In this document: piece after piece, positions 37,858 to 47,448 of the stretch
Numbering within the stretch: position 1 is the first letter of the stretch
Layout: the number at the start of each line of letters is the position of its first letter
NCBI GenBank assembly: GCA_009391195.1
Contig: VEXB01000008.1
Coordinates: forward strand, 1-59,197
Reading direction: 5' to 3'
Length of the DNA: 59,197 nucleotides
Source of the DNA: SAR202 cluster bacterium AC-647-P02_OGT_505m
GTDB taxonomy: Bacteria; Chloroflexota; Dehalococcoidia; Lucifugimonadales; UBA826
Position numbers and translations under genes: made by a program
The notes under the pieces: generated by a model
Databases searched by the model: none
Seen by the model: the letters and a program-made list of their open reading frames with translations, nothing else
What the model was told of the DNA's origin: nothing

Positions 37858-38598
37858 CTAATTTGATTTCTTAAGTTTTAATACCAGTATGCTTAGAGCC
37901 ACAGTTCCAATAGCTATTAATAGTACTAATAAAGGTAAAAAGAATTTGTGGGTCCATGGGCTTGATTTACCGTTCTCACGATTCTCATGAAACTTTCTCA
38001 CTTCCCATATGCTTGATGGCAGACTAGCTATGTCACTCATACCAAAGCGTTCTTCTTTGCCTATTGCTACCCATAATTTTCCAGTATTTTTTTCTTCATC
38101 TAGGCTTACCAGATAATACCTACCCGTTTCAGTAAGAGAAATTTCTCTCTTAGTTAAAACCCAAGAATTTGTATCAGTAAAAGGTTCATGAAATGGTGTT
38201 AAACGTGCTCCATCTGTGCTGACGTACGATTGTGTCAACTCTATAGGGGAGTGATTCGGGTCACTGGGTTCGATAAGAACTATTGTTGGTCGGAAATCTC
38301 TGACTTGTTCTAGAGCTGGTAATCCAATCTCTAAATGTAGAATTTGTCCTGACTTGCCTTCAAATGTGATCCACGACTGTTCAGCTGACTCATTCAATAT
38401 CTGATAGATGACTTTCGATATTTGGATTTCATCTAGGGCCAGAGCTTTTTCGAGTGTTTCATTTTCATCAAGTGCCATATAAGGGACATGTGATTCAACA
38501 AAGTGAACATCGGTTAATGTAATTATAGTGAGGGAGATTAAAGAGAAGAACAGGATTTTCAATAGCCATGTATTTTTAAACGTTGTTAGAACAGTCAC
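37858..38598 (-). CDS. Envelope protein of unknown function (N-terminal signal/anchor, C-terminal TM)
   Basis: A 246-residue protein. It has a hydrophobic N-terminal segment (about 13-30, possible signal or anchor), an outside beta-rich domain of about 170 residues with ITFEGKSGQILHLEIGLP, FRPTIVLIEPSDPNH and TETGRYYLVSLDE (PPC-like in shape), and a C-terminal membrane helix (about 220-240) followed by KLKKSN. No catalytic motif is seen. Its ATG overlaps the DUF1365 stop by 4 bases, so it is translationally coupled to the lipid-modification genes and may scaffold them at the membrane. Confidence 0.7.
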   Translation of the reverse strand: MTVLTTFKNTWLLKILFFSLISLTIITLTDVHFVESHVPYMALDENETLEKALALDEIQISKVIYQILNESAEQSWITFEGKSGQILHLEIGLPALEQVRDFRPTIVLIEPSDPNHSPIELTQSYVSTDGARLTPFHEPFTDTNSWVLTKREISLTETGRYYLVSLDEEKNTGKLWVAIGKEERFGMSDIASLPSSIWEVRKFHENRENGKSSPWTHKFFLPLLVLLIAIGTVALSILVLKLKKSN

Positions 38599-39392
38599 GT
38601 GAATGGAAACTTTATCTTTGATATAAAGCCTCTAGCAGGAGCTACATGGTTATCTTCTTTTGGGATCGGTTTTTTATAAAAATCTATCTTCATTTTGAAA
38701 AATAATACCCGGGCAATTCTTAGTATTCTTAATTCAGTTAGTAACACTGTTACAACCAATTTTGGCAGCATCTTGAATAAGGAGGATTTTCGTATTGGTG
38801 TTAAATTGCCGGAGAATTCAGTGGTTATTAAAGGCTGATCATCTTGGTTCAACTTTATATGTATTTCGACGCTGTCATCTGAAATTGAAAATCTAAATGT
38901 ATATGTGCCTTCTCTGGAAATGAAGGGTGATACATGAAATTGCTTGGTTGAAATGTATTCAATATTTTTACTATCTAGCGATTTATCGTTTAGGTAATAA
39001 ATGTGAGATTCGCCGAATGTATTGTGAACCTCAACAGCAGCGTCACGGATACTTTTGTCTATGGTAAGGCGGAAGTAAAAGGTCGCAGGGTTGAATGAGT
39101 ATCGAAAAATGCTTGGAGTGGTGAGAATAAAAATATTGTCTTTATCGTCTATTCCTTCGAAGTAGTTTGATAATTTTGTTCTAATACTTTTATGGGAATC
39201 GTCTATATAGTCTGAATCTTGAATCTGAATTAGTCCGCCGCCGTTATAGGACAGCGGCCAAATGTTTAATTCCCCTCTTTCCAACTGATGCAGATTGAGA
39301 AACAGCATCGTATGTTTGAACCGGAAAGAGTGTAACGCTGGTCTTGACCTATTGTGTACGAGGTAACCTGAAGCAATAAATGAATTATTCAG
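38595..39392 (-). CDS. DUF1365 family protein with non-ATG start
   Basis: A clear DUF1365 protein: RPALHSFRFKHTMLFLNL at the N terminus, FNPATFYFRL, VEVHNTFGESHIYYL and FHVSPFISREGTYTF. DUF1365 genes are almost always next to an FAD amine-oxidase-like and a CFA synthase gene, as here. The first ATG (39308) would cut off the conserved opening ASGYLVHNRSRPALH, whose codons are open upstream without a stop. No ATG, GTG or TTG is in frame there; a CTG at 39392 has GAGGA about 5 bases ahead and gives about 265 residues, overlapping the FAD gene by 8 bases. ATT at 39377 is the alternative. Biochemical role is unknown, probably lipid-linked. Confidence 0.75.
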   Translation of the reverse strand: MNNSFIASGYLVHNRSRPALHSFRFKHTMLFLNLHQLERGELNIWPLSYNGGGLIQIQDSDYIDDSHKSIRTKLSNYFEGIDDKDNIFILTTPSIFRYSFNPATFYFRLTIDKSIRDAAVEVHNTFGESHIYYLNDKSLDSKNIEYISTKQFHVSPFISREGTYTFRFSISDDSVEIHIKLNQDDQPLITTEFSGNLTPIRKSSLFKMLPKLVVTVLLTELRILRIARVLFFKMKIDFYKKPIPKEDNHVAPARGFISKIKFPFT

Positions 39393-40653
39393 ATGATCCT
39401 CGACTTGTTTCAGACTTGATTATCTCCGACACTTCTATTCCTGATTTGTAACCATCTTCATGAAACCCATACCCAGTGTATGCTCCACAGAATTTTATTT
39501 TTCCCTTCTTATTGAGTATGGGAATGATTTTTGATTTTGATTTCTCCGAGTGTGACAGCATAGGATGGCTAAAAGTTGTTTGATACAAAACATCAGATTT
39601 GATTGGCGGATTCTCAGGATCGACAGTGACTAAGAATCTTGTTTTTGATTCAATGGATTGGAGTAAATTCATATTGTATGTCGTATATGTGTGATCAGTG
39701 AAATTTCTGCTTTCTTCTCTAATTACATTCCATGAAGCCCATAGCCTTTTTTCCTTTGGCATGAACGTCAAGTCAGTATGAAGATAAATCTTGTTAATTG
39801 AATATTGAATCGCCTGTAATATATTGGATTTTTCGTTGGATATGTTTTCGACAATTTTTAGAGCTTGGTCTGCGTGGGTTGATACGATGACGTAATCAAA
39901 ACTTTCGGATATTCCTTGTTTTGTGGTAACGCACACGCTATTTTCTTTTTCTAAAACCCTGATCACCTCCTCTCCTGTTTTTATTGTGCCTCGGAAGCAA
40001 TTTTTAAAGGCATTTAAATAGGTGATACTTCCACCTACCACGGAATACCACTTCGGTCGGTTCGTAAGTTGCAGAAGTCCGTGATTGTCAAAAAAAGTTG
40101 CATATGTACTAACGGGTATTTTCTCAGCGGCCTTTTGATCGCAGGACCAGATAGCAGAAGCAATCGGCTTGAAATAATTGTTGATGACTTCGTTCGGGCA
40201 TCCCGCATGTCGAAGAAAGTCAGTAATAGACTGACTTTCATGGCTATCAGACAGCTGTATTCTTCTGAGCTTTCTGGAATATTTGTAGATATTGAAAAGA
40301 GTTTTTGGGCCGCCTGAGGTCCAGTTGGTGAGGGAGGGAGTCAAACCCAGCAATGTTCCTGCATAGGCTATGTTTTTTGAGTAGTCAGTGAATGAAAATG
40401 ACATGGAAGTTTTAAAACTTTTAACTCCCAATTCTATTAGAAACTTAGAAAAACCGGGATAATTCCTGTCATTAAATACAATGAATCCTGTATCAATGTT
40501 CCAGGGGTTACCCAATTCATCCTCAACGGACACCGTGTTAGTGTGGCCTCCAATACGAGGGTTTGACTCATAAATAACAATCTCATGTTCTTTATCCAGG
40601 TTGTATGCTGCAGAAATACCGGAAATGCCGGACCCTATAATTGCAATTTTCAA
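39385..40653 (-). CDS. FAD/NAD(P)-binding amine-oxidase-like oxidoreductase (COG2907 type)
   Basis: A 422-residue flavoprotein. It has GSGISG (7-12) with the acidic end YESNPRIGGHTNT, the WNIDTGFIVFNDRNYPGF segment typical of this group, and a C-terminal GFHEDGYKSGIEVSE that closes the FAD site. It is related to carotenoid desaturase/amine oxidases but shorter. It is the standard partner of DUF1365 and CFA-synthase-like genes in light- or stress-inducible loci, where fatty-acid modification is suspected. The start overlaps the stop of the preceding methyltransferase by 4 bases (ATGA). Confidence 0.88.
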   Translation of the reverse strand: MKIAIIGSGISGISAAYNLDKEHEIVIYESNPRIGGHTNTVSVEDELGNPWNIDTGFIVFNDRNYPGFSKFLIELGVKSFKTSMSFSFTDYSKNIAYAGTLLGLTPSLTNWTSGGPKTLFNIYKYSRKLRRIQLSDSHESQSITDFLRHAGCPNEVINNYFKPIASAIWSCDQKAAEKIPVSTYATFFDNHGLLQLTNRPKWYSVVGGSITYLNAFKNCFRGTIKTGEEVIRVLEKENSVCVTTKQGISESFDYVIVSTHADQALKIVENISNEKSNILQAIQYSINKIYLHTDLTFMPKEKRLWASWNVIREESRNFTDHTYTTYNMNLLQSIESKTRFLVTVDPENPPIKSDVLYQTTFSHPMLSHSEKSKSKIIPILNKKGKIKFCGAYTGYGFHEDGYKSGIEVSEIIKSETSRGSSE

Positions 40654-41666
40654 GGGATATCTACTCTTTTTGAAAATAAATGTTGAGCAACAAACCAGTC
40701 TTTTCCTTCGTTGAATCTGAAAAGTTCAGAGCAAAAAATCAGAAATAATCTGTATCTGCTTAGGTAAGAATCATCGTTGTAATCCGATAGTATTTTTTTC
40801 TTGTTTTTGTGGAGGTTGGAAAGCCAAAATTCCAAAGTTTTATGATAGTGAATTCCCGATATAGTCCAGGTGCTATCTAATTGGAGAGGAATTTGCAGAT
40901 CGTTATAAAAATTCTTGTACGGCATCATTCCATTAGTAAAAAAATGTCTGGACATCCAAGATGTTTGAGCGTTATCAAAAAACTGTGGGAAGGACCGGTG
41001 AGAAAATACTTGTATAAAAAGTTTGCCTTCGTCATCTAGCCATTCATTAATCTTCCCTATAACCATTTTGGGATTTCTTAAGTGCTCAAACATTTCAATC
41101 GATGTGATTCGATCAAAACGATCATGTGTCTTGAAATCATTAATATCTGACTTTATTACTTTGATATTAACGAGGCCTAATTCATTTGCACGTTGATCAA
41201 TGAAGTTTTTTTGAATACTAGAATTAGTAAGTGCTTTCACTTCAGAATTTCTGTATCTATCCGCCATTTTGATTGCCAGGGATCCCCATCCTGCGCCTAA
41301 ATCAAGGATTGAGTGTCCATTTTCAATCGATGCTTTATCAATGTAATTGTCAAGCGTTTCGTTATCTGCGACTTCTATGTCGTCACCTTCTCGTTGCCAA
41401 TATGAGCCGCTGTACTTCATCGTTCGACCGAGAACATGTTCAAAAAAGATTACAGGCACTTCATAATGCTGAACGTTAGCTTCTGCGGCGCTCAAGGCAA
41501 TAGATCCAGAAAGCGACTTTTTCAGGAATGAACTTTGCACCTGCAAAATTTGGCTGGGATCTAACCTTTTTATACGGTTGCTGTATCTTTTTAATCCTAT
41601 CCTTACCGCATATCGAAGAGCCCAATCAGGAAGAATTCCACTTTCAATAACCTTATCTATTAACAT
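40650..41666 (-). CDS. CFA-synthase-family SAM methyltransferase, short divergent form
   Basis: A 338-residue protein. The SAM-binding motif is SILDLGAGWGSLAI (about 118-131), with TSIEMFEHLRNP as the later catalytic segment and SWMSRHFFTNGMMP matching the 'sYIFPGG' region. In classical CFA synthase the sequence before motif I reads Y-S-C, with the cysteine near the bicarbonate site; here it is Y-S-G (TMKYSGSYW), so chemistry may differ, for example plain methyl transfer. It is less than full CFA length. It is 4 bp from the paralogue upstream and overlaps the FAD gene. Confidence 0.83.
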   Translation of the reverse strand: MLIDKVIESGILPDWALRYAVRIGLKRYSNRIKRLDPSQILQVQSSFLKKSLSGSIALSAAEANVQHYEVPVIFFEHVLGRTMKYSGSYWQREGDDIEVADNETLDNYIDKASIENGHSILDLGAGWGSLAIKMADRYRNSEVKALTNSSIQKNFIDQRANELGLVNIKVIKSDINDFKTHDRFDRITSIEMFEHLRNPKMVIGKINEWLDDEGKLFIQVFSHRSFPQFFDNAQTSWMSRHFFTNGMMPYKNFYNDLQIPLQLDSTWTISGIHYHKTLEFWLSNLHKNKKKILSDYNDDSYLSRYRLFLIFCSELFRFNEGKDWFVAQHLFSKRVDIP

Positions 41667-41670
41667 TGGG

Positions 41671-42864
41671 CTATTGTTTTCTGTAAGAAATTTGCAAAGT
41701 ATTTATATGCCCTGACTGAAAAGCTCCTTCACAGTAACTGAAGTAGTAAAAGAATTTTCGGAAGTCGCGTTCTTTGAATCCTAGTTGTTTAACGGCTGGC
41801 CAGTTGGATTCAAGATTAGTTCTCCAGCTTGCAAGAGTCTTTGCATAGTGGTGGCCAATCTCTTCACTGCGGTAAATTTCAAAACCATATTTAGCAGCTG
41901 AATTGTTTAATAGTCTCTCTGAAAGTAATAGCCCGCCAGGGAAGATGTATTTTTGTATATAGTCGCAATTTTTTCTATAGGTATCGTATCGGTCGTCGGG
42001 GACCACTATTACCTGTATCTGTAGAGAACCATTTGTCCTGATAAGGTTGGAACATTTTTCGAAAAATGTATCAACACCATTGTGTCCAACGGCTTCAAGC
42101 ATTTCCACTGAAAATATGTGGTCAAACTTTCCCTCCATCATTCTGTAGTCCATACGTTTTAGGTCAATTACGTGAGTTAAATTGTTGTCTCCAATCCTTT
42201 TGTTGAATGAATCAAATTGATTCTTTGATAAAGTAACTGCAGAAACATTTAACGAGTAATTTGTGGCGGCACTAAGTGCCAAGCTACCCCAGCCACATCC
42301 GATATCAAGTATCGATTGTTCTGACCTGACACCTGCGGCGTTAAGCAGGTGGTTAATTTTTGTCTGTTGAGCCACATCCAAAGAATTTTCGTTATTTTCA
42401 AAAATGCCACAAGAATAGGTCATAGAGTTGTCGAGGAAACTCTCAAAAAAATCGTTACTCAAGTCATAGTGATCGCTGATGTTTTTTTTCGCGCTCTTTA
42501 ATGAGTTTTTTGATTTTACGTGCTGAGTTATACGGGCGGCTATTTTGGAGGGGGCATATACTCCAATTGCGCTTGCCAAACCTTGAGATGTCAGTGTGGA
42601 AAGATGTTCAAATAATCTTGGTAGGTTGTTGTGATCCCATCTCCCATTCAGATATCCTTCCGCGAATCCTAGGTCGTATCCCGAAACAAGGTCCCAGAAG
42701 AATCCCCAATCTTTTACAGTAATGGGTTCGATAGGATTGCCTAAAACACTACCCAATTCATGTGTTTTCCCATCAGGGGTGATTATGCTTATACCTGATT
42801 GAGCGAAACTTTTTAGAATCGGTTTTGACAAGGCACGACCTGTTAGTCTTCTTAAAGAAATCAA
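41671..42864 (-). CDS. Cyclopropane-fatty-acyl-phospholipid synthase family methyltransferase
   Basis: A 397-residue full-length CFA synthase. It has an N-terminal lipid-binding domain (SCP2-like), HYDLSNDFF, MTYSCGIF with the active-site cysteine, ILDIGCGWGSLAL (SAM), SVEMLEAVGHNG with the Glu, DYIQKYIFPGG and HYAKTLASWR, then FFYYFSYCEGAF near the end. The family adds a methylene or methyl group from SAM across a cis double bond in membrane phospholipids. The neighbouring desaturase-like gene (3 bp away) could make that double bond. Acts at the inner face of the cytoplasmic membrane. Confidence 0.9.
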   Translation of the reverse strand: MISLRRLTGRALSKPILKSFAQSGISIITPDGKTHELGSVLGNPIEPITVKDWGFFWDLVSGYDLGFAEGYLNGRWDHNNLPRLFEHLSTLTSQGLASAIGVYAPSKIAARITQHVKSKNSLKSAKKNISDHYDLSNDFFESFLDNSMTYSCGIFENNENSLDVAQQTKINHLLNAAGVRSEQSILDIGCGWGSLALSAATNYSLNVSAVTLSKNQFDSFNKRIGDNNLTHVIDLKRMDYRMMEGKFDHIFSVEMLEAVGHNGVDTFFEKCSNLIRTNGSLQIQVIVVPDDRYDTYRKNCDYIQKYIFPGGLLLSERLLNNSAAKYGFEIYRSEEIGHHYAKTLASWRTNLESNWPAVKQLGFKERDFRKFFYYFSYCEGAFQSGHINTLQISYRKQ

Positions 42865-42867
42865 AAC

Positions 42868-43953
42868 TTAAGACAACCCCGAAGGCCCTAGAGGAGATTC
42901 TGATTTCTTTAGAAATCCCTCAACATCTAGTTTCTCGTATACATATCTCTTTAACGATTTACGAAGGTTAAATTGTATTTTCTCTAGCAGATTCATCGGA
43001 ACCTCTTGTTCATGGGTTGTAAGTCCAAGCTGCTCCAGCATTGCCTCCCCAACTATTCCATGACTCCCTGGAAAAGTGTTCAAAGCTTTTTTAACCAGAG
43101 TGTTGGGTACTTGATCTATAAATTTCTGTTCACCAGCTGTTGCATATTCAATAAGTAATTTTCCCAGTTTCTTATTGTCATCCAAAGCCAGATTTAAATT
43201 CGCAACTATTCTTGCGAGGAGTTCTATCACTGAGCCGTTCATTTTTGGTATCCACTCTTGCGTTTTTTCTTCTATGTCAGAGACATTGGGAATGTGATTT
43301 GATGGCATTTGGAATGTAGTCGTCGCATTTATTACTTCAGTTAAAAGAGCCGGGTCTGCTTCTAGTTGCAACGCAGTCAGGTTGCGAAATTGCACTGTGT
43401 GCAGAGCCTCTCTACCTTTAACTTTACTGATGACTTTTGATGTGTTGCTATTGGCCGGGAAAAATCCCCTCTGTAGCTCGTACCAGTAATCTGTTATGCA
43501 TTCTTGGATCATTCCGTATGTAGTGAGAGCTATCGGATGAAACCCAGAGGTGTGCTTCGTCTGATATTCGACTCCCTGTTTCGCTTCCTCAATATCCAAC
43601 TTTAAATTGGTTTCGTTTATGCCGAAGTCGACCAAAATATTTTTAAATGGATCTGCATGACCATATTCGTCAGGTTCCCAAAAACCTAATACATAATCTT
43701 GGAGCCATTGAGCTCCATACATTTGTGCTCCTAACTGAAAAGTTTTGGAGTATTGATCAGTGAGGGATTCAGTTATCAGTGATAACCTGAAGCTATCAAT
43801 TAAGTCCTCGGCAGTCATGCCACTTTCCGTAACGAGGTCTTCAGGTGTAAATGACTCAAACATCGATTCAAGGTCTCTTGAATTTACGGTTTTTAGTTTA
43901 GGTATCTGGTCTTGAACGTAGGAATCAATGATGACGTTGGGTTTGATTTTCAT
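42868..43953 (-). CDS. Acyl-ACP desaturase-like diiron protein
   Basis: A 361-residue ferritin-like protein resembling acyl-ACP desaturases of the DesA type. All six likely iron ligands are present: E62 (LITESLTDQY), E96 and H99 (EPDEYGH), E151 (MIQECITDYW), E182 and H185 (GREALH). The helices and spacing match, though the C-terminal 150 residues are unlike the mycobacterial enzymes. Such enzymes place a cis double bond in acyl chains with O2 and ferredoxin; no reductase is adjacent. Three bases separate it from the CFA synthase gene, which would use the double bond. Function is assigned on family pattern only. Confidence 0.72.
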   Translation of the reverse strand: MKIKPNVIIDSYVQDQIPKLKTVNSRDLESMFESFTPEDLVTESGMTAEDLIDSFRLSLITESLTDQYSKTFQLGAQMYGAQWLQDYVLGFWEPDEYGHADPFKNILVDFGINETNLKLDIEEAKQGVEYQTKHTSGFHPIALTTYGMIQECITDYWYELQRGFFPANSNTSKVISKVKGREALHTVQFRNLTALQLEADPALLTEVINATTTFQMPSNHIPNVSDIEEKTQEWIPKMNGSVIELLARIVANLNLALDDNKKLGKLLIEYATAGEQKFIDQVPNTLVKKALNTFPGSHGIVGEAMLEQLGLTTHEQEVPMNLLEKIQFNLRKSLKRYVYEKLDVEGFLKKSESPLGPSGLS

Positions 43954-43997: not shown

Positions 43998-44408
43998 TTA
44001 TGTTGTGACTGGCCATACATATGGCAAATTATTGGGAACATTCCAACCGAATTTCGAGTAGAATTCAAAATCTTTTCGGAGAAGGTTAGATCTGTGTGAT
44101 TCATGAAATTTATTTGCACCCATGAATGGAGGGAGTTTGTATATTTCTTCGTGTTCTGCAAGTTCCATAGTGTTATTGAAACCACGATCTATCCACTCCG
44201 TGATCATTGAATTTTGATAAGCTGCAAGGGCATCTGAAAACCCCTTCCACATTAGTACTGCTGGATGTCTCAGCCATCCCCCACTCGTACGTTTACCCGA
44301 TATTATCCGTAGGATTTGATAGGCTTCTACACGTTGTTTACCCAGGCGCCTGTTATCCAGGCACGCAGCTGTTTTTTTGAAGTCGTTGTAAGGAAGAAAA
44401 GTTTGCAT
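43998..44408 (-). CDS. Pyrimidine-dimer DNA glycosylase-like protein (MSMEG_6728 family)
   Basis: A 136-residue protein. MQTFLPYNDF, LDNRRLGKQRVEAYQIL, HPAVLMWKGFSDALAAYQ and HRSNLLRKDFEFYSKFGW match the MSMEG_6728 group, related to T4 endonuclease V (DenV) family annotation for UV-dimer glycosylases. The activity itself has little direct proof in this group. It is coded 14 bp behind the membrane protein in the long minus-strand operon, which would place a UV-damage function beside the B12 light-sensor regulator. Confidence 0.75.
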   Translation of the reverse strand: MQTFLPYNDFKKTAACLDNRRLGKQRVEAYQILRIISGKRTSGGWLRHPAVLMWKGFSDALAAYQNSMITEWIDRGFNNTMELAEHEEIYKLPPFMGANKFHESHRSNLLRKDFEFYSKFGWNVPNNLPYVWPVTT

Positions 44409-44422
44409 TTTAAAGGCCTGTT

Positions 44423-44959
44423 CTACTTATGAAATAAAGCTGTCCATATAATCGCGTCAAAGACAAGACAATGAAATGTTATTGAACTCAAACCAGCTAT
44501 AGCCAGATATTTTGTTCCGATGCCAACAGAATCGCTACCCGTTGAGGCGGTTATATAAATTAGGGTCAAAAGAGCCAGGGCAGTGACCCAGAGAGATGCA
44601 ATTGAAATAATCCACCATATAGTGTTTTGAGTCTTTAGATAATAAATAGTAGATGGCATCCACAGAGCTGCCGAGGCTAAGAATATGACAACCATAATTT
44701 CTACTGCATGTGGTCCAATGTTATTGGCGTCATTAAAATTTACCAGACCATCCCTGAATAAACTGACACAACAAAATAGTAAGTATCCGGACGCTGCAAA
44801 AATCATTGATACGGTGAGGATAGTACGAAGAGTGCCTTGAACTCCGCCCCAAAGCGCCTCACGATATTCAGGAAATGACGCTATTCCCCAGTAATACCCC
44901 CCCAATACAGCTACTCCACCGACTAAATTTGAGAGTATAAATAAAGTTTGCGTGTTCAT
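44423..44959 (-). CDS. Membrane protein of unknown function (about 5 TM)
   Basis: A 178-residue hydrophobic protein with about five membrane helices (near 7-25, 47-68, 87-107, 115-140, 155-175). No motif is recognised and cysteines are few. It is the first gene of the long minus-strand operon; the ATG has AAGGG about 5 bases ahead and a promoter at 45000-45028. Position suggests a role in membrane lipid or light response, but nothing more can be said. Confidence 0.7.
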   Translation of the reverse strand: MNTQTLFILSNLVGGVAVLGGYYWGIASFPEYREALWGGVQGTLRTILTVSMIFAASGYLLFCCVSLFRDGLVNFNDANNIGPHAVEIMVVIFLASAALWMPSTIYYLKTQNTIWWIISIASLWVTALALLTLIYITASTGSDSVGIGTKYLAIAGLSSITFHCLVFDAIIWTALFHK

Positions 44960-44992
44960 GATGACCCTTAGTAACTATTAATTGATTTCTAT

Positions 44993-45008
44993 ATGTACTA
45001 TAATACAT
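44993..45008. promoter_or_regulatory. Palindrome overlapping the divergent promoter -10 (candidate operator)
   Basis: ATGTA (44993-44997) and TACAT (45004-45008) are inverted copies with a 6-base spacer. The repeat covers the -10 of the minus-strand promoter (45000-45005). Its centre lies about 105 bp from the TIGR01777 start and 42 bp from the minus-strand first gene. A repressor such as the downstream B12-XRE protein could bind here and control both directions. Binding is inferred from position only. Confidence 0.5.
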
Positions 45009-45028
45009 GGAAATGGCTTGAAAGACAA
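45000..45028 (-). promoter_or_regulatory. Sigma70-type promoter of the long minus-strand operon
   Basis: On the minus strand, TTGTCT (45028-45023) and TATTAT (45005-45000) are 17 bp apart, about 41 bp before the first gene. The -10 lies within the ATGTA-N6-TACAT palindrome. This would drive all genes from 44.96 kb down to 36.8 kb. Confidence 0.6.
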
Positions 45029-45046
45029 TTATTGATCTAGGAGAAT
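45018..45046 (+). promoter_or_regulatory. Possible plus-strand promoter of the TIGR01777-regulator operon
   Basis: TTGAAA (45018-45023) and GAGAAT (45041-45046) are 17 bp apart; the -10 is a weak 4/6 match. The -35 overlaps the -35 of the opposite promoter, so the two would compete. Lower confidence than the minus-strand one. Confidence 0.35.
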
Positions 45047-45119
45047 ACTTCATGTTCGTGGGTGTTATTTGGGCTTTTGACTCTAGAAGATCCACTCGTA
45101 AAACAAGGGGAGATAGGAA

Positions 45120-46562
45120 ATGAAAGTTCTTATTGTTGGAGCAACAGGATTTATTGGTAAAACCACTGTTGCTTTCCTGCAGGGGAAAGGTCATGAGGTT
45201 TCGGCATGGGTGAGAGATATTGAAAAGGCTACCGGCATGCTTGGGGATGGTGTGGAGCTCATTTCGTCTATAAAAAATGCTGAAGGTCTGCAACAGTATC
45301 TTGAGGAAACCGATGTAGTAATAAATTTAGCGGGACGGCCTTTAGCAGGAATACGATGGACGGGCAAAAAAAAGATTGAATTTTTTGAAAGTCGTGTGAC
45401 GGTTACTAATTTAATATCGGATGCTATTTCTATATGCAAGAATCCGCCGAAGGTTTTGATTTCAGCCAGTGCAGTTGGAATATATGGGAACACGGGGTCA
45501 ATATCTGTAGACGAGGAAAGCGTTGTTGGTCAGGATTATTTATCCGAACTATGTTTACAGTGGGAGGCGGCTGCCAACCGATCCAAAAATTTCGGAGTTA
45601 GGGTCTGTAACATAAGGATTGGGATTGTTTTAGGGCGTGAGGGTGGAATGTTGCAGCAGTTGATCCAAAGTTTTGATCTCGGGATAGGAAGCTATTTGGG
45701 AAGCGGTAAACAAAGAGTTCCATGGATACATGTTGTTGATGTTGTCAGGGCTATAACATTCTGTATAGATAATAAGGAATTAAATGGTCCTGTTAACCTT
45801 ACATCTCCCCACAGTTCCAGCGGGAAAGAATTTGCTAGAGTTTTGGCTTCATTAACTAACGCACGCTTCATTATTCCCGTGCCTAGGTTTGTCTTGAAAT
45901 TGGTTTTTGGGGAGGGGGAGGTAGTTTTGACAAATAGCCAAAATGCACTGCCATCGAAACTGCTGAAATTTGGATTCAGGTTCGAATATGAGTCGCTTAA
46001 ACCTGCTCTCAAAGACGAAATATATCCTGAAGAAATTGTAGTTAGTAAATCTGATTCGACTGATGAGGATCTTGAATATGGGCGTAAAGCCCAATACGAA
46101 TTGAAAACTTCCGTTGCATTAAACTCTGATCAGGAAAAAGCCTTTAATTTTTTTTCATCTCCTCTGAATCTCGGGTTAACTACTCCGTCTTGGTTGAATT
46201 TTAAGATCACTGAAATTCCTCTGTCAGTTTCAAAGGAGTGTGAGATTGCTTATGAGATTCGACTATGGTTTATCCCAATAAAATGGAGAACCAGTATTCT
46301 TGAATGGGATCCACATGAGTCATTTGTAGATATTCAAAAAAGTGGGCCCTACAAGCTATGGATACATAGCCATTTTGTCGAATCAACCTCAGAGAATACC
46401 TCGATAATGAGAGATATAGTTCGGTACAGTGTTCCAGGAGGCCCTCTAGGTAGGCTGATACATTTTTTGGTTATAAAGAAATCACTCATAAGAATTTTTG
46501 GTTACCGGAGAAGTATGATTCGTATGAGACTTGGGCATGTTACATGCGACTTGTCTATCTAA
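45120..46562 (+). CDS. TIGR01777-family epimerase-like SDR with C-terminal SRPBCC domain
   Basis: A 480-residue fusion. Residues 1-300 form an atypical SDR of the TIGR01777/YfcH type: VGATGFIGKTTV, VINLAGRPLAGIRW, LISASAVGIYGNTG and VPWIHVVDVVRAI are family marks; DUF1731-like residues follow (FRFEYESLKPAL). Residues about 325-470 resemble an SRPBCC/START-type domain (SVALNSDQEKAFNFFSSPLNL, GPYKLWIHSHFVES, IMRDIVRYSVPGGPLGRLIHFL) that could hold a lipid. It is transcribed with the B12 regulator gene (16-bp gap), and opposite the lipid-modification operon. A role in lipid binding or reduction is suggested by context. Confidence 0.83.
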   Translation: MKVLIVGATGFIGKTTVAFLQGKGHEVSAWVRDIEKATGMLGDGVELISSIKNAEGLQQYLEETDVVINLAGRPLAGIRWTGKKKIEFFESRVTVTNLISDAISICKNPPKVLISASAVGIYGNTGSISVDEESVVGQDYLSELCLQWEAAANRSKNFGVRVCNIRIGIVLGREGGMLQQLIQSFDLGIGSYLGSGKQRVPWIHVVDVVRAITFCIDNKELNGPVNLTSPHSSSGKEFARVLASLTNARFIIPVPRFVLKLVFGEGEVVLTNSQNALPSKLLKFGFRFEYESLKPALKDEIYPEEIVVSKSDSTDEDLEYGRKAQYELKTSVALNSDQEKAFNFFSSPLNLGLTTPSWLNFKITEIPLSVSKECEIAYEIRLWFIPIKWRTSILEWDPHESFVDIQKSGPYKLWIHSHFVESTSENTSIMRDIVRYSVPGGPLGRLIHFLVIKKSLIRIFGYRRSMIRMRLGHVTCDLSI

Positions 46563-46578: not shown

Positions 46579-47448
46579 GTGACAAATCATCTAGTCGATA
46601 AGTTAACCGATGCGTTGCTTGCGGGAGATGCCCCTGAAAGCGAATTGGTACTTCAAGAAGCTTATTTAAATAAGTTTTCTGCTATGGATATTTACGAGTC
46701 TGTTTTCGTGGAAGCTATGAATAAAATTGGGTCGCTTTGGCATGATGGTGTGATAACGATTGCTCATGAACATAGGGCGAGCGAGATAGTAATGGGACTC
46801 ACAGACAAAGTGTCTGACAATACTCCACATCTATCGATAAATGGGTTTTCTGCCTTGGTGGCTTGCGTGGAAGAAGAAAATCATGTTCTTGGGGCCAAAC
46901 TTTTTTCTAGTATTTTGGAGATTAATGGTTGGGTAGTGCACTACTTGGGATCTTCCATGCCGGCAGGGGACTTAAAACGTTTTTCCGAAGAAACATCACC
47001 TGACGCCATCATACTAACCGCAACATCTGCCGATAGGGCAGCGAGGGTTCATGAGGCTATAGCGGCACTGAGTGATCTAGATAAAGATCCTGTCATTCTT
47101 CTGGGTGGTTCAGGTATTTGCGAAGATGATTATAGTGGGCAATTAGTGGCTCAGGACTTATCCTCAGGGTTAAGCCTACTGGAAAAAAATCTGAATATAG
47201 GGACTGACTTCGATGGATTGGACCAGGTTTTAATTGGGATAGGAAATAATATACAAAATTTGCGAAAGGCAAGAGGGATGAATCAAGGACAACTTGCAGA
47301 TATCGCAGGAGTTGATAGGGCCTATATCAGTTTGGTAGAAAATGGGAAACAGAACCTTACTCTTGGGGCACTAGTAAAGTTGTCTGAATCTCTTAGTGTT
47401 TCCGTATCAGCTCTGGTACCAGCTTCAACCAGGGGTACCCAAAAATAG
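46579..47448 (+). CDS. Cobalamin-binding transcriptional regulator with C-terminal XRE-type HTH (CarH/LitR-like photosensor domain)
   Basis: A 289-residue protein. Residues about 5-80 form a helical bundle with W54, nine residues, then E64-H65: the W-x9-E-H signature of B12 photoreceptors of the CarH/LitR group. Residues 90-205 are the cobalamin Rossmann domain: E100-x-H102-x-x-G105 (lower-ligand histidine), the LTATS strand end and GGSG (176-179). Residues about 218-280 are a Cro/C1-type HTH (LRKARGMNQGQLADIAGVDRAYISLVENGK). CarH/LitR proteins have a MerR HTH at the N terminus, so the architecture is inverted and of another HTH type. The start is GTG with AGGAG nine bases ahead. Likely adenosylcobalamin-dependent repressor released by light; the target is probably the divergent promoter. 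Confidence 0.85.
   Translation: MTNHLVDKLTDALLAGDAPESELVLQEAYLNKFSAMDIYESVFVEAMNKIGSLWHDGVITIAHEHRASEIVMGLTDKVSDNTPHLSINGFSALVACVEEENHVLGAKLFSSILEINGWVVHYLGSSMPAGDLKRFSEETSPDAIILTATSADRAARVHEAIAALSDLDKDPVILLGGSGICEDDYSGQLVAQDLSSGLSLLEKNLNIGTDFDGLDQVLIGIGNNIQNLRKARGMNQGQLADIAGVDRAYISLVENGKQNLTLGALVKLSESLSVSVSALVPASTRGTQK

Follow-up and report, generated by a model that had tools for sequence, protein, structure and literature searches.

Light-type cobalamin-binding domains (CBDs) fused to helix-turn-helix (HTH) domains at their N- and C-termini have been reported in the 2024 SignatureFinder survey (PMC11796333), the main text of which names neither the XRE family nor an operator or regulon. 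Other described systems of relevance are the photocobilins (PDB 8j2w, 8j2y), the cobalamin domain of CtMerR (PDB 8jbs/8jbt), and the CarH/LitR regulators with an N-terminal MerR domain, such as CarH of Thermus thermophilus (TtCarH, PDB 5c8d/5c8e). In Pseudomonas, a light-induced gene cluster belongs to class II LitR, a MerR-type protein that works with a LOV photoreceptor (PMC9758184). The few cultured SAR202 bacteria are inhibited or killed by light (PMC10444878); in 'Ca. Lucifugimonas marina' light inhibits growth, and the heliorhodopsin gene lies one gene downstream of a photolyase gene. The words 'cobalamin', 'B12' and 'photoreceptor' are absent from the main text of the latter study, and no cobalamin-based light regulator is named there. 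In the open-access literature searched (supplements excluded), no description of an XRE-type B12 photoreceptor by name, of its operator or of its regulon was found, nor was any experiment on a member of the family described below found in the literature searched.

The window, that is, the whole stretch of 59,197 nucleotides of contig VEXB01000008.1 analysed here (SAR202 cluster bacterium AC-647-P02_OGT_505m), encodes at 46579-47448 of the forward strand a regulator of 289 aa, in which a CBD precedes a Cro/C1-type (XRE, HTH_3) domain, as identified by Pfam, alignment and an AlphaFold model. Its domains, residues and fold, the conserved gene module and the conserved palindrome were all established by computation. 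The protein is likely to be an adenosylcobalamin-dependent dark repressor released by light, a role in which the binding of cobalamin and of DNA, the photolysis, the change of oligomer and the sign of control are inferences.

Domain order, cobalamin-site residues and fold

The regulator ORF begins with GTG, which AGGAG precedes by 9 nt, and a 16-nt gap separates it from the preceding gene of a DUF1731 oxidoreductase. The N-terminal part is a four-helix cap, B12-binding_2 (residues 6-72, 46594-46794, forward strand; Pfam 52 bits, cut-off 23), holding W54, H55, E64 and H65, which is followed by the B12-binding Rossmann domain (residues 92-182, 46852-47124, forward strand; Pfam 38.4 bits, cut-off 32.1) with the lower-ligand H102 and the GxxxP element (G124-P128). 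Past residue 208, both Pfam and the AlphaFold model (mean pLDDT 90.5; monomer, no ligand) show only a linker and the HTH_3 (XRE) domain (residues 225-277, 47251-47409, forward strand; Pfam 46.8 bits, cut-off 23), whose recognition helix DRAYISLVENGKQN is near-invariant among the family members. The first-pass annotation had claimed this very order, the cobalamin domain first and a C-terminal Cro/C1-like HTH instead of an N-terminal MerR domain, and the claim held, with B12-binding_2, B12-binding and HTH_3 all above their curated cut-offs in the HMM searches. The implied lack of precedent for such a fusion failed: a C-terminal HTH on a light-type CBD is not unprecedented, since HTH fusions at either end are reported in PMC11796333. 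The architecture alone is, thus, not wholly new, and what is new here, as inferred from sequence alone, is the candidate operator and regulon. The HTH_3 fold is held in common with the XRE regulators of the C.AhdI/SinR types, which, unlike the present protein, are without a cobalamin domain.

The presence of the full cobalamin residue set, also claimed by the first-pass annotation, was confirmed by inspection of the sequence for W54-x9-E64-H65, E100-x-H102-x-x-G105 and GGSG (G176-G-S-G), and its claim that this set defines the CarH/LitR-type sensors was upheld only in part. The ExH motif is not diagnostic of the family because position 100 is mostly D (D in 31, E in 16 and N in 3 of the 50 aligned members), and the window protein lacks the G of the GxxH element of the published light signature, having E99 at a position occupied by G in 42 of the 50. 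The GxxW, EH and GxxxP elements of the light-type CBD signature (PMC11796333), which are shared with CtMerR, are met by the regulator, whose G124-P128 aligns with the GxxxP, and H55 aligns with H132 of TtCarH, the second axial ligand of the light state. The conservation counts in the 50 are 48 for W54, 49 for E64, 49 for H65 (one X), 48 for P128 and 44 for H55. The lower-ligand histidine H102 is invariant (50/50), so that its loss in homologues, which had been named as a ground for refutation, was not observed. In L058 and L061, W54 is replaced by Y and the P of GxxxP by L, with H102 kept; a loss or change of the light function is possible in these two relatives.

These residues bear on the rival explanation that the protein is a B12-independent effector under another light sensor, like class II LitR of Pseudomonas, with the B12 fold as a mere scaffold. 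It is supported by the action of class II LitR downstream of LOV proteins at loci with similar genes (PMC9758184) and by the substitutions at W54 and at the P of GxxxP in the two above relatives; however, the window protein and nearly all relatives retain the ligand residues, H102 without exception, which makes this rival very unlikely against the light-released, cobalamin-dependent dark repressor.

In the structure comparison with the regulator model, the nearest solved fold was that of the photocobilins (Z 25.9-28.3; the best 28.3, with 1.5 A over 202 residues), and CtMerR (Z 24.8-25.1) and TtCarH (Z 21) were also matched. Methionine synthase (Z 23.4) and the monomethylamine corrinoid protein (Z 23) were on par with TtCarH, and, therefore, the fold alone does not separate photoreceptors from corrinoid enzymes; it is the W/EH/H/GxxxP residues, not the fold, that are inferred to distinguish the regulator as one of the photoreceptor type. 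The profile search of PDB sequences ranked photocobilins at 116 bits, CtMerR at 106 and CarH at 77, with the corrinoid proteins (74-76 bits) close to CarH, and the CarH-type proteins well above AerR. The photocobilins are, thus, the closest by both sequence and fold and share the N-terminal cobalamin domain, but carry at the C-terminus a globin-like domain that binds bilin, in place of the HTH. TtCarH is alike in the CBD fold, in the equivalents of W131/H132/E141/H142/H177 and in GxxxP; in contrast to CarH/LitR, the regulator has a C-terminal XRE and no N-terminal MerR domain, a candidate palindromic operator of the TGT..TATA..ACA type and no carotenoid genes. The best NCBIfam match of its CBD (CBD only) is the CarH repressor model, and the regulator is not classed as a CarH/LitR member because the MerR domain is absent and the equivalog cut-off of that model is far from met (70.5 vs 400 bits).

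Since the SCHIC domains of AerR and AppA have the same fold (Z about 20), a sensor of redox state or haem like AerR/PpaA/AppA may be considered, or a protein with stronger DNA binding in the light. Against it are the higher fold scores of photocobilins and CtMerR (Z 25-28), the above sequence ranking and the location of the candidate operator over a -10 region, which favours dark repression, so that such a sensor is a highly doubtful alternative to a light-released dark repressor.

The proposed dark repressor belongs to a family of its own domain combination. Homologues of full or nearly full length, with their domains in this order, are carried by 19 of the 59 relatives in the order searched, and the alignment of 18 diverse orthologues, including the window protein, has 20 invariant columns spanning both domains, by which the combination is a conserved family and not a chance one. 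This alignment, used as a profile for scanning the GTDB genomes, gave about 59 loci, nearly all encoding full-length proteins; the fetched loci are from SAR202 and other Dehalococcoidia, Caldilineaceae, Fraserbacteria, Uabimicrobium and several deltaproteobacteria, the genomes being mostly MAGs. In Chloroflexota, full-length matches of 318-376 bits were found in 12 of 400 genomes, and the fusion stands apart, since the next-best matches (at most 179 bits) cover the cobalamin domain only. The plasmid records yielded no protein covering 80% of the query and only CBD relatives such as CarH. The clade of the window (11 members) forms one side of a well-supported branch, and the closest named relative is a SAR202 MAG with 86% identity.

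Gene neighbourhoods of the regulator

In the window, eight genes read leftward (44959 to 37858, reverse strand) and face the rightward pair of the regulator and its preceding gene, the first of their operon, which encodes a TIGR01777/DUF1731 NAD-dependent oxidoreductase with a C-terminal SRPBCC-like part (45120-46562, forward strand; Pfam, NCBIfam). The leftward operon begins with a conserved hydrophobic (membrane) protein of unknown family (44423-44959), followed by a pyrimidine dimer DNA glycosylase family protein (Pyr_excise, 43998-44408; Pfam), a conserved protein without a Pfam match (42868-43953), a CMAS-family fatty-acyl methyltransferase of the cyclopropane fatty acid synthase type (41671-42864; Pfam), a second CMAS-family methyltransferase (40650-41666; Pfam, NCBIfam), an FAD-dependent amine-oxidase-family protein (39385-40653; Pfam, NCBIfam), a DUF1365 protein (38595-39308) and, as the last gene, another conserved protein without a Pfam match (37858-38598), a homologue of which adjoins the regulator in Fraserbacteria. 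The whole arrangement or part of it is kept in ten relatives. The 42868-43953 protein, which eight module-bearing genomes keep at 52-88% identity, has E62, E96xxH99, E151 and E182xxH185, resembling diiron desaturases, and these ExxH motifs hint at a diiron enzyme as a lead only; the PDB search was without a match, and the AlphaFold model, at pLDDT 39, was too poor for use. The genus of the window (G000, G001; genomes 56% and 87% complete) yielded no FAD_binding_7 photolyase, while Pyr_excise sits in the proposed light operon.

The first-pass annotation had noted a lack of carotenoid genes in the window, which held and extends beyond it: phytoene/squalene synthase was detected in none of the 11 searched genomes of the family to which the organism belongs, and carotenoids are, therefore, probably not the output of the regulator. 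The class II LitR light cluster of Pseudomonas (PMC9758184) is alike in its photolyase, short-chain dehydrogenase, FAD oxidoreductase, CMAS-type UfaM and FolE, and unlike in its regulator type and LOV partner.

In the complete genome of 'Ca. Lucifugimonas marina' JH1073, there are two regulator copies, each beside FolE, SRPBCC, photolyase and SDR-DUF2867, and both heliorhodopsin genes share clusters with them (L069, L081), which possibly points to linked light responses in this bacterium. The Fraserbacteria locus contains DUF1365-CMAS, amine oxidase, DUF2878, DUF1475, SDR, SRPBCC, RudS, whose genes are known from light-responsive operons (PMC11417400), and a photolyase-like protein, called from a weak Pfam match under the cut-off. 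At least one marker family was found within 10 kb in 19 of the 49 loci left non-redundant by clustering, and in the remaining ones RudS beside L046 was the only light gene to be recognised. The deltaproteobacterial-type members (L075-L078, L085-L087) are mostly beside a DnaJ-like gene, with neither the operator nor recognised light genes.

The neighbourhoods are of use for weighing two further rivals. The first is a sensor of cobalamin supply, with adenosylcobalamin as a corepressor that reports the B12 status and tunes lipid modification. In its favour, any adenosylcobalamin-binding repressor would respond to the cofactor level too, and 11 of 12 searched genomes of the order, that of a congener of the window's organism among them, have the adenosyltransferase gene (PF01923). 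The PduO-type adenosyltransferase was not found in the organism's own genome (56% complete) or in Lucifugimonas, a point against the dark repressor itself. Against the supply sensor, the neighbours across the family are photolyase, FolE, heliorhodopsin, RudS and Pyr_excise rather than genes of B12 synthesis or uptake, and the W/EH/GxxxP signature belongs to light-responsive CBDs (PMC11796333), which leaves this explanation unlikely.

The second is corrinoid methyl transfer of the MtbC/MtaC-like kind, with regulation of methylotrophy. The genome does have a genuine MtbC-like corrinoid protein with MtaA- and RACo-like neighbours, that is, a corrinoid methyl-transfer locus, on another contig (L001, G000:C2:83417). 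Nevertheless, the W-x9-EH is intact in the regulator, and a predominance of the fusion in corrinoid-methyltransferase contexts, which the first-pass annotation had named as refuting, was rejected, as no MtaA- or RACo-like partner gene was found in any of the 58 family loci; this rival is practically ruled out. The light-released dark repressor remains the preferred reading, to which the candidate operators are relevant.

Candidate operators

The palindromic weight-matrix search gave in the divergent promoter region of the window (44960-45119) a candidate operator palindrome of 14 bp, TGTACTATAATACA, at 44994-45007, which is the sole match of the window to the pattern TGTNNTATANNACA (0.04 expected); the exact-palindrome counts in the intergenic regions were not above those in the shuffles. 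A different operator had been implied by the first-pass annotation, and the 44.96-45.12 kb region pointed out there does hold the best candidate, without any binding data. The -10 hexamer (45000-45005) of a predicted sigma-70-like promoter of the leftward operon (45000-45028, reverse strand), known from the consensus scan only (2 found, 0.9 expected), falls within the palindrome. The TGTNNTATANNACA pattern occurs once in each of the loci of seven fetched relatives, always in the same intergenic region. Genome-wide, TGTNYTATARNACA has 13 sites in 12 genomes against 7 for the reversed control, and of the 13, nine lie at the promoter of the module and two at a single ABC-transporter operon. The only other clade palindrome in the genome of the window (G000:C17:11637-11650; L093, L094) precedes the genes of a LolD-like ATPase and a 1146-aa FtsX-like permease, and in a congener (L098) the clade palindrome is before the same LolD-like/FtsX-like ABC operon. 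It is absent from the photolyase loci of the organism's own relatives.

Upstream of the regulator outside this clade, the 14-bp palindrome is not enriched, whereas an 18-bp version is: the palindromic weight-matrix search of 38 regulator upstream regions yielded TGTngaaTATAttcnACA, a TGT-n(12)-ACA motif centred on TATA, with a score of 152 against at most 35 for the shuffles and 28-38 upstream of the other genes of these loci. Scores of at least 12 were reached by 27 of the 38 regulator upstream regions and by 4 of 263 others, with the reservation that these controls correct only partly for shared descent. The spacing of the candidate operator differs between the clade of the window and the rest of the family. 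In the 4.1 Mb of the Fraserbacteria genome, an exact search for TGTCNANTATANTCNACA returned three sites, which all fall in 6.1 kb of the light locus: one between DUF2878/amine oxidase/DUF1365-CMAS and DUF1475/SDR, one before RudS/photolyase-like and one before the regulator. The TGT-n(12)-ACA palindrome was not found in the deltaproteobacterial members.

In three SAR202-type loci (L080, L082, L083), an extra operator copy precedes the fasciclin-domain gene adjoining the regulator, and in the two loci of 'Ca. Lucifugimonas marina' such a gene shares with it a divergent promoter region. In L070, L080 and L082, the regulator is preceded by a pair of palindromes separated by 54 bp, roughly five turns of the helix, and cooperative binding may be suggested from this spacing as a possibility.

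Proposed light control and its meaning

In the dark, the N-terminal domain would bind adenosylcobalamin, with H102 as the lower ligand and W54 and E64-H65 packed on the adenosyl side, and the bound cofactor would keep an oligomer whose C-terminal XRE domains sit on TGTACTATAATACA, over the -10 region of the divergent promoter. Light would split the Co-C bond, loosen the oligomer and let transcription begin both ways: leftward, for the lipid-modification and DNA-repair operon (the membrane protein, Pyr_excise, the diiron-like protein, two CMAS, the FAD oxidoreductase and DUF1365), and rightward, for the oxidoreductase and the regulator itself. Dark repression is favoured because the candidate operator lies over the predicted -10 region, and the inferred dark repression with the operator over a promoter is a likeness to CarH/LitR. 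The light-responsive repressor proposed by the first-pass annotation is, thus, supported by the gene context and by the overlap of the operator with the predicted -10 box, and not shown. Points that weigh against it are the missing G of GxxH in the window protein, the minority of loci with a recognised light gene within 10 kb, the lack of the palindrome in the deltaproteobacterial members, its differing spacing between the clade and the rest, and the photolyase loci of the organism's relatives without a clade palindrome.

A bolder reading, to which we lean only slightly, is that the B12 photoreceptor repressors with the sensor first and the XRE domain last are a separate family and the main light switch of many SAR202-type bacteria, with their own palindromic operator over a -10 box, and control a carotenoid-free photoprotection, including lipid methylation, photolyase or dimer glycosylase, FolE and RudS, and heliorhodopsin in the cultured lineage.

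An XRE-type B12 regulator might serve as a green-light gene switch. The family indicates that a B12 light sensor can be joined to a different DNA-binding domain, predicted to read a palindrome, which bears on the signal passing in such sensors. For SAR202, which is very abundant in the ocean, it offers a candidate cobalamin-based light regulator, together with a predicted operator and regulon.
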